Origin: Cytophagaceae bacterium
GTDB taxonomy: Bacteria; Bacteroidota; Bacteroidia; Cytophagales; Cyclobacteriaceae
Reading direction: 5' to 3'
Length of the DNA stretch: 64,000 nucleotides
Assembly: GCA_006969745.1 (NCBI GenBank)
Contig: CP030886.1
Span: 2,019,234-2,083,233 of the forward strand
Position 1 is the stretch's first letter, and each line of letters starts with the position of its first letter. The notes under the pieces were generated by a model. It made no database searches, was not told the DNA's origin, and saw nothing but the letters and a program-made list of their open reading frames with translations. This document shows positions 34,060-50,367 of the stretch, piece by piece. A program made the translations under genes and the position numbers.

Positions 34060-34587
34060 ATGTACCAGTTTCTTTCTCGCGTTTCCAACAAGTACTTTAA
34101 GAATCATGCGCATAGGCTTTTCAAGGTATTCTTCAATCTCTCGCCGATGTATCGAAGGTCGACAGGAAAGATTACCTCAGTGACACCTAATTTGGATAGA
34201 ATAGAAATTAAGATTCCTATTTCTTACAAAAACAAGAATTACGTAGGGACCATATTTGGTGGGAGTCTCTTTTCAGCAACTGATCCCATTTATATGGTAC
34301 AGTTAATACAGCTTTTGGGCCCTGCCTATGTTGTATGGGATAAATCATCGGTGGTAAGATTTAAAAGGCCAGCAAGTACTAATGCTTATTCTGTATTTGA
34401 GTTTACAGAGCAGGAGCTGGATGAACTTAAAAGCCAAATAGAGAAAAAGAAAGAAGTAGATCTTGTTAAGACAGTCCAGCTTACAAGCAAAGACGGCCAG
34501 CTTTTTTGCGAGATAGAAAAGACCATATACGTGGCAGATAAGGCTTATTACAAAGAGAAACGGAAGAAGAAGTCTGGAAGTCAGTGA
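34060..34587 (+). CDS. DUF4442 hotdog-fold thioesterase-like protein
   Basis: 175-residue cytoplasmic protein of the DUF4442 family, which has the hotdog fold of PaaI-type thioesterases. Diagnostic segments are ITSVTPNLDRIEIKIP, NYVGTIFGGSLFSATDPIYM (the active-site loop region with the conserved Gly-Gly) and VVWDKSSVVRFKRP. A basic tail (YYKEKRKKKSGSQ) ends it. The ORF is open from a TTG at 34024; the ATG at 34060 is the more likely start. Substrate unknown, probably an acyl-CoA. Confidence 0.75.
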   Translation: MYQFLSRVSNKYFKNHAHRLFKVFFNLSPMYRRSTGKITSVTPNLDRIEIKIPISYKNKNYVGTIFGGSLFSATDPIYMVQLIQLLGPAYVVWDKSSVVRFKRPASTNAYSVFEFTEQELDELKSQIEKKKEVDLVKTVQLTSKDGQLFCEIEKTIYVADKAYYKEKRKKKSGSQ

Positions 34588-34659: not shown

Positions 34660-34675
34660 ATTATCAATTGATAAT
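34660..34675. promoter_or_regulatory. Perfect palindrome upstream of nrtS
   Basis: ATTATCAATTGATAAT, a 16-base perfect palindrome, 26 bases before the nrtS ATG. Fifteen of its bases recur identically at 50291-50305 upstream of another gene, which suggests an operator rather than chance; no regulator is known. Confidence 0.5.
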
Positions 34676-34701
34676 ATTGAATTCCTAACCATCCGTAAAA
34701 T

Positions 34702-34908
34702 ATGACTTCAGAACAGGTTTTTGATTCCATCAAAATCGCTATTGTGGTGGGATCCATCCTCAGCATGATAAATCAATATGATGTATTGATTTCATGGGAT
34801 TTGAGCAGCACAGATGTTCTGCGAATCTTCTTTAATTACCTGGTGCCATTCAGTGTGGCGAGCATTTCGCGAGCTATGCATATCAAAAAAGAAGGGAGGA
34901 AGTTATGA
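34702..34908 (+). CDS. nrtS: NrtS-type nitrate/nitrite transporter subunit
   Basis: 68-residue protein with two hydrophobic helices (IKIAIVVGSILSMINQYDVLI and FNYLVPFSVASISRAM) and the family's FNYLVPFSVAS core. NrtS proteins are very small membrane subunits shown in cyanobacteria to support nitrate/nitrite uptake as paired subunits. Only one copy is visible here. Its stop overlaps the start of the next gene as ATGA, so both proteins are made together. No nitrate or nitrite reductase gene is in the window. Confidence 0.75.
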   Translation: MTSEQVFDSIKIAIVVGSILSMINQYDVLISWDLSSTDVLRIFFNYLVPFSVASISRAMHIKKEGRKL

Positions 34909-35369
34909 AGAAAGTAATCTTAGCACGGCCCAGTTCTCTGATAGTTTCAGATATGAAGAAGCTGGTTTCATCTACTGGCTTTGAAGCAATGCCTATTGCG
35001 GAAATTAATGAACTGACACACATTAGTCAGAGTGAAGCAGCAGGGATTGTGATATCTACGGCGCTATCTTCAACAGTAAAGGAGAAGTATTGGGAGGTGG
35101 TGCAGCGGTCGGCAGCCATTTTTCCGGGGAAACCAATTTTTCTGGCTTCTTATGCGACGATAAGGAGCACGAAAATTACAGCCGGAGCACACATTAAAAA
35201 TGCCGGACTTGACTTTGAGCTCCTTTCTATTGAGGAGGCAAAATCGGGATCATTTGACTCAAACAAACAAATTTTGATTTTGACGCAAAAGGAAATTTCC
35301 GATCCCATTGCTTTTAGCTCAATTAGTGAGTTGATGAAGCGTCTACTTATGTCCTCAGTTCCTGTTTGA
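34905..35369 (+). CDS. NrtS-coupled protein of unknown function, receiver-like
   Basis: 154-residue soluble protein. The order of strands and helices (KKVILARPSSLIVSDMKKLV; AAGIVISTALS; GKPIFLASYAT; KQILILTQKE) resembles a Rossmann-like/CheY-like flavodoxin fold, but the acidic pair and phospho-acceptor Asp of true receivers are missing. I recognise no family. It starts inside the nrtS stop codon (ATGA), which ties its dose to NrtS, and may be its partner or regulator; that is inference. It ends four bases from the convergent GNAT-like gene. Confidence 0.65.
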   Translation: MKKVILARPSSLIVSDMKKLVSSTGFEAMPIAEINELTHISQSEAAGIVISTALSSTVKEKYWEVVQRSAAIFPGKPIFLASYATIRSTKITAGAHIKNAGLDFELLSIEEAKSGSFDSNKQILILTQKEISDPIAFSSISELMKRLLMSSVPV

Positions 35370-35373
35370 GGAA

Positions 35374-36543
35374 TTAATTCTTAATGGGCATCCGCTTAAA
35401 TTCTTTTGTCCGGTCAAAGAGGTATCGAAAGGTATGATGTGTCTTCACCACATCGCCGCCCACTTGTTCTACTACCTTGATCATTTTAGGATTAAAGTCT
35501 CCAATCCAGTTCATTTCCAATTGCTCATACCTGGTATAGGTTTCTTGAATCACATCTCTAATAGCCATGATTAGTGCACCGTCCACACCTTTTCCCTGAT
35601 GTTCAGGAGAAATACCGAATACAAGCCCAATCATTTTTTTATTGGTCTTCATCAGTTTATGATAAAGAAATTTAAGTTTTCCTATCAAGTTAAGCTTTCC
35701 ATTAACATGTTTGAACACCTGATTCAACTCTGGAATATTGATGTAAAATCCAACAGGCTTATCATTATGATAGCCAAACCACATAATTTTTTCATCCATT
35801 ATGGGCTTCATCTTTTTGATGATAGCATTGGCTTGTAAAGAGGACATTTCAGCTACACCCGGATGCCTTGCCCAGGCGTCATTATACACAGTTCTGAAAT
35901 CTTCCGCATATTTTTTTAAATACTTCTTTTCGATATGTCTGAAAGTATAGTCCGCATTTTGTCGTGCAATAGCTGCTTTTTCATACAGCCGATCACTGAG
36001 CGGGTCCATCACCAGTCGACCGAATGTAAACTGCTTGAAATAAACCTCAAACCCATAGTTTTGAAACAGCGCTTCATAATACGAAAAGTTGTAATTGCAC
36101 TGATAGTTGGGCGGCCTGTCAAATCCGTCTACTAGCAATCCCCACCACGTGTCTCGGTCTCCGAAATTAATGGGTCCGTCCATTGCCTCCATTCCTTTGT
36201 CAGACAGCCATTTTTTTCCGGCATCAAACAAAAGATTGGCAGCTTCTTGATCATTTATACATTCGAAAAAGCCTACTCCACCAGTTGGTTGATCATTGTC
36301 TTTGTTTACTGTTTTCTGATTGATGAATGCGGCAATCCGGCCAATGGTTTTTCCTTGGTCATCTTTGAGGATCCACCGAATGCATTCACCATTTCTAAAA
36401 AACTTGTTGACTTTAGGATCAAAGACACCATTGATATCTTTGTCTAAAGGTCGAATCCAGTTGGGTTCATCTTTGTAGAGTTTTACTGGGAGGAGTAAAA
36501 ACTCATCGGCAGTTTTTTTATCGTTGACTTCAATGATTTGCAT
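35374..36543 (-). CDS. GNAT-like acyltransferase
   Basis: 389-residue cytoplasmic protein of a type common in Bacteroidota and usually annotated as an N-acetyltransferase-like protein. Two acyltransferase-fold halves can be guessed: an N-terminal half with DDQGKTIGRIAAFIN and FFECINDQEAANLLFD, and a C-terminal half with the acetyl-CoA-loop-like LVFGISPEHQGKGVDGALI, where QGKGVDGAL corresponds to the Q/RxxGxG/A motif. The middle has GPINFGDRDTWWGLLVDGFD. Substrate is unknown. Monocistronic. Confidence 0.65.
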   Translation of the reverse strand: MQIIEVNDKKTADEFLLLPVKLYKDEPNWIRPLDKDINGVFDPKVNKFFRNGECIRWILKDDQGKTIGRIAAFINQKTVNKDNDQPTGGVGFFECINDQEAANLLFDAGKKWLSDKGMEAMDGPINFGDRDTWWGLLVDGFDRPPNYQCNYNFSYYEALFQNYGFEVYFKQFTFGRLVMDPLSDRLYEKAAIARQNADYTFRHIEKKYLKKYAEDFRTVYNDAWARHPGVAEMSSLQANAIIKKMKPIMDEKIMWFGYHNDKPVGFYINIPELNQVFKHVNGKLNLIGKLKFLYHKLMKTNKKMIGLVFGISPEHQGKGVDGALIMAIRDVIQETYTRYEQLEMNWIGDFNPKMIKVVEQVGGDVVKTHHTFRYLFDRTKEFKRMPIKN

Positions 36544-50290: not shown

Positions 50291-50305
50291 ATTATCAATT
50301 GATAA
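50291..50305. promoter_or_regulatory. Second copy of the ATTATCAATTGATAA palindrome
   Basis: Contains the perfect palindrome TTATCAATTGATAA and is identical over 15 bases to 34660-34674. It lies between the 55-residue gene and the VCBS protein gene, 62 bases before the latter's ATG. Confidence 0.5.
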
Positions 50306-50367
50306 CATTCTAATTTTCAGGAAACTGCGTATTTTTGGTGTTGCTGGAACCGTCAACACTACCACTG

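Follow-up and report, generated by a model that had tools for sequence, protein, structure and literature searches.

NrtS is a nitrate/nitrite transporter and one of the smallest transporters known. In the 64,000-nucleotide stretch of Cytophagaceae bacterium contig CP030886.1 analysed here (the window), an nrtS-like gene runs into the start of a second small gene, for a 154-residue protein that we call RL. The question raised by this locus is whether the two genes constitute an uptake unit with a dedicated partner protein, as was proposed in a first-pass annotation of the sequence. Here we find that nrtS and RL are a real and recurrent but non-obligate pair. The features of the locus are collected in Table 1; other genomes of the sample are given by number, with G000 denoting that of the window.

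Table 1. Features of the nrtS/RL locus (positions in the window).
Feature	Position	Strand	Evidence and remarks
DUF4442 thioesterase-like gene, directly upstream	34060..34587	+	Pfam DUF4442, 52.2 bits
16-bp perfect palindrome ATTATCAATTGATAAT	34660..34675	.	Belongs to an operator-like motif spread over the genome
nrtS-like gene, 68 aa	34702..34908	+	NF038050, 26.1 bits; two hydrophobic segments; homologues in 20/390 family genomes
Pseudo-receiver gene (RL), 154 aa	34905..35369	+	ATGA start; homologues in 5/390 family genomes; AlphaFold2 model; receiver matches
Convergent 389-aa gene, GNAT-like (by inspection), conserved, closing the locus	35374..36543	-	

RL had been annotated as starting inside the nrtS stop codon, and the sequence bears this out: stop and start share the ATGA at 34905-34908, giving a 4-nt overlap, and GGGAGGA lies directly 5' of the RL ATG. 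Comparison with relatives of the same genus shows that synonymous change far exceeds replacement change, both for RL against G035 (pS 0.85, pN 0.25) and for nrtS against G148 (pS 0.81, pN 0.23), and thus both open reading frames are real genes. The DUF4442 gene is part of the conserved locus and stands outside the pair.

Profile searches and structure prediction, which had been suggested for the 154-residue protein, returned no Pfam family and a predicted receiver fold. By sequence RL has no match in Pfam, NCBIfam or the PDB, and none of the five RL homologues matches the Pfam Response_reg domain. A model built by AlphaFold2 from two sequences, those of the window and of Reichenbachiella versicolor, has a mean pLDDT of 85.3 and a pTM of 0.84; it supersedes a poor single-sequence model (pLDDT 57). 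The best solved matches of the two-sequence model are mostly response-regulator receivers, with those of GacS, KdpE and DctD among the best in Foldseek (E down to 7e-5) and a VIA-align Z of about 10-11 at an rmsd near 3 Å over about 120 residues, and the N-terminal domains of amino-acid decarboxylases score like receivers. Sequence comparison agrees, linking RL weakly to the receiver domain of a regulator of the NtrC type. We set aside a profile match to 8eoz_B, apparently a designed protein.

The five RL homologues align over their full length and share two invariant motifs, LARP following strand 1 and ST..SS following strand 3, which include R8-P9 and S51-T52. Aligned by eye with CheY, RL has R8-P9 in place of the acidic metal-binding pair and T52 in place of the phospho-acceptor Asp57, with IVIST corresponding to FVISD57. 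Since these replacements fall on the phospho-acceptor and acidic positions, RL is, on its predicted CheY-like fold, a stand-alone pseudo-receiver, and judged by these residues it could not be phosphorylated in the usual way. The earlier description of a receiver-like fold that has lost its phosphorylation site therefore agrees with the model and with the invariance of T52 and R8-P9.

The partner gene is less clear-cut. Its product matches the NCBIfam profile for NrtS (NF038050) at E 5.9e-6, narrowly above the cut-off of 25 bits, and has no match in Pfam. In size and hydropathy it is what NrtS should be, a small protein (about 65-120 residues) with two membrane helices, its hydrophobic segments lying at approximately residues 4-30 and 39-55. 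The first-pass annotation had further supposed that NrtS is normally paired with a second NrtS subunit; this premise looks wrong, since Maeda et al. 2019 reportedly found two subunits in one cyanobacterium only. The surroundings of NrtS-like genes elsewhere vary. In many species of genus g57 they adjoin a gene for an alpha/beta hydrolase-OsmC fusion, and several of these loci also have an Rrf2-type regulator gene alongside. Four NrtS-like loci adjoin large sensor-like genes, two of which were scanned: the one in G099 has PilJ/HAMP/GAF domains and the one in G016 Cache/GAF domains. The gene content of contig C203 of G046, which bears an NrtS-like gene, suggests that it may come from another organism.

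How closely the two genes are tied was assessed over 390 genomes of the family, assumed to be the same draw for both counts, in which RL occurs in five and NrtS-like proteins in 20. No further genome with RL was found among 395 sampled across the phylum, and two scans of genome contigs returned, respectively, no RL and that of Reichenbachiella versicolor only. A search of plasmids gave one weak match (27%, E 0.009) and a search of viral contigs none, so that nothing suggests that RL came from a mobile element. Both genes are present in the genome of the window and in G571, from another genus. In each of the two genomes they lie side by side and overlap, with nrtS first, and the overlap in G571 is 8 nt; the G571 pair lies downstream of a DUF885 gene, and its other neighbours are unrelated to those of the window. 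Outside these two genomes the genes part company. RL lacks an adjacent nrtS in three of its five genomes (G035, where no NrtS is detectable, G072 and Reichenbachiella versicolor), and 18 of the 20 genomes with an NrtS-like protein have no RL. The expectation that RL always follows nrtS thus fails, as does the expectation that the nrtS of close relatives keeps it, for the same-genus genome G148 has nrtS alone. What survives of the dedicated partner is the recurrence of the overlapping pair in a second genus; its exclusivity does not, each gene being found largely apart from the other.

Within the window's genus, the locus appears as a conserved DUF2306/DUF4442/GNAT-like block whose cargo varies: nrtS with RL in the window, nrtS only in G148, neither in G141, and in G035 RL without nrtS, lying across DUF4442 from the site used in the window. 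The DUF4442 gene adjoins the variable site in all four genomes. That of G141 has an in-frame TAA.

We tentatively favour a reading in which RL serves as an optional accessory whose amount follows that of NrtS and which docks on or otherwise modulates the NrtS oligomer. The chance of the two genes sharing at least two genomes is p about 0.02, and that of adjacency on top of sharing falls to about 1.6e-8, assuming two independent cases. The pairs of G000 and G571 may, however, both go back to a single ancestral pair, in which case the assumption would not hold, and support in the NrtS tree is too weak to decide on their common origin. It is also quite possible that the overlap is neutral, having arisen when two accessory genes of this lineage were joined at a variable insertion site, through one ancestral event or through transfer, with RL functioning independently. 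The presence of all four combinations of the two genes at the same locus in four same-genus genomes fits this, as does the solitary RL of Reichenbachiella versicolor, between dapF and secA. However, the same overlapping order has been kept in two genera in unrelated neighbourhoods at only about 35% protein identity, which speaks against a neutral by-product.

The perfect 16-base palindrome that had been described just upstream of the pair is indeed there (Table 1). Its core is TTATCA-NN-TGATAA, and it occurs in exact form three times in the genome, where base composition would predict about 0.006 sites. With up to one mismatch there are 11 sites (3 exact and 8 one-mismatch) against about 0.26 expected, all of them intergenic or close to the start of a gene as judged from a simple ORF map, and with up to two mismatches 25 sites are found against 3 for a reversed control. 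This genome-wide spread rules out a palindrome private to the nrtS/RL pair. Neither the nrtS of G148 nor the G571 pair has a copy nearby. In G035 a one-mismatch copy lies upstream of RL and forms part of a 24-base segment whose alignment with the promoter in the window is better than that of any of 300 shuffles. Two degenerate copies precede the gene of a regulator with a cNMP_binding domain (PF00027) and a C terminus that is Crp-like in appearance. Since copies precede this Crp/Fnr-type gene, the usual argument for autoregulation makes its product the best candidate for the palindrome-binding factor, putatively autoregulated. The region of the regulator gene is G000 C1:661630-669820, with the palindrome copies at sites 4001 and 4176 within it. 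A further copy in the window, at 50291-50306, is upstream of the gene for a 756-residue, secreted-looking protein.

That a palindromic promoter element precedes RL alone in G035 could also be taken to mean that RL is itself a regulator, of expression, proteolysis or some other membrane partner, with NrtS a minor member. This would explain the three genomes in which RL has no adjacent NrtS, but we consider it unlikely, as no DNA-binding or output domain is seen in RL and nothing points to a target.

The proposal of a two-gene uptake unit meets a difficulty in the genome of the window, where nitrate uptake has no obvious use. A search of that assembly, rated 98.4% complete, for PF01077 and PF00384 found no PF01077 siroheme nitrite/sulfite reductase, and the only PF00384 protein is of the FdhF/YdeP type (TIGR01701, 886 bits). 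Judged by these two enzyme families, nitrate uptake for assimilation seems unlikely in this host, and the substrate of its NrtS is probably not nitrate for assimilation. NasC-like or NapA-like reductases are carried by G571 (NasC-like), G099 and G016, and in G099 the NrtS-like gene follows apparent nitrate-type ABC transporter genes and the PilJ/HAMP/GAF sensor gene. That the unit takes up nitrate or nitrite, be it for assimilation or for respiration, and that RL is its required second subunit is very unlikely: the profile match, the context in G099 and the reductase of G571 would fit this, but the PF01077 and PF00384 results for the genome of the window and the many NrtS-like proteins that do without RL do not. 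It should be noted that the name NrtS is given to two-helix proteins whose host genomes may make no use of nitrate.

According to the reading that we favour, RL as an optional accessory of NrtS, the gene overlap would couple translation of the two genes so that RL is made in proportion to NrtS. The cytosolic RL would then dock on the NrtS oligomer from the cytoplasm, or modulate NrtS in some other way, its predicted receiver fold having exchanged the phosphorylation pocket for Arg/Ser/Thr. The palindrome in the promoter of the pair would be a global operator to which a Crp/Fnr-type regulator may bind. A more specific proposal, which we regard as improbable, is that RL founds a pseudo-receiver family in which the Arg/Ser/Thr pocket senses anions, and that RL directly gates a minimal two-helix channel of the NrtS type, the channel being for an anion other than nitrate for assimilation. 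We know of no described regulator of NrtS; recurrent overlap with a stand-alone pseudo-receiver would offer a testable first one, in which the receiver fold serves a new purpose.

Compared with known systems, the window protein shares with NrtS (NF038050) its size, two hydrophobic segments and above-cut-off profile match, as well as the conserved VG..L...N and P..V positions. It differs in its borderline score, its overlap with RL and a host in which the assimilatory enzymes searched for were not found, and the contexts of its relatives are very diverse. RL resembles CheY-like receivers in its predicted alternating beta/alpha fold, but differs from them in the substitutions at the acidic pair and the phospho-acceptor, in having no Pfam match and in a further strand and helix towards its C-terminal end. 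Circadian-clock proteins contain pseudo-receiver domains, which have the receiver fold without phosphorylation chemistry. RL is like them in this respect, but it stands alone and has no output domain, and its family is rare and unmatched in the family libraries searched. GlnK (PII) and AmtB are an example of a cytosolic regulator genetically linked to a transporter. The proteins are unrelated to those described here, and the nrtS/RL pair is non-obligate; the likeness is one of organisation only, the gene for a membrane transporter being linked to that for a small cytosolic protein.
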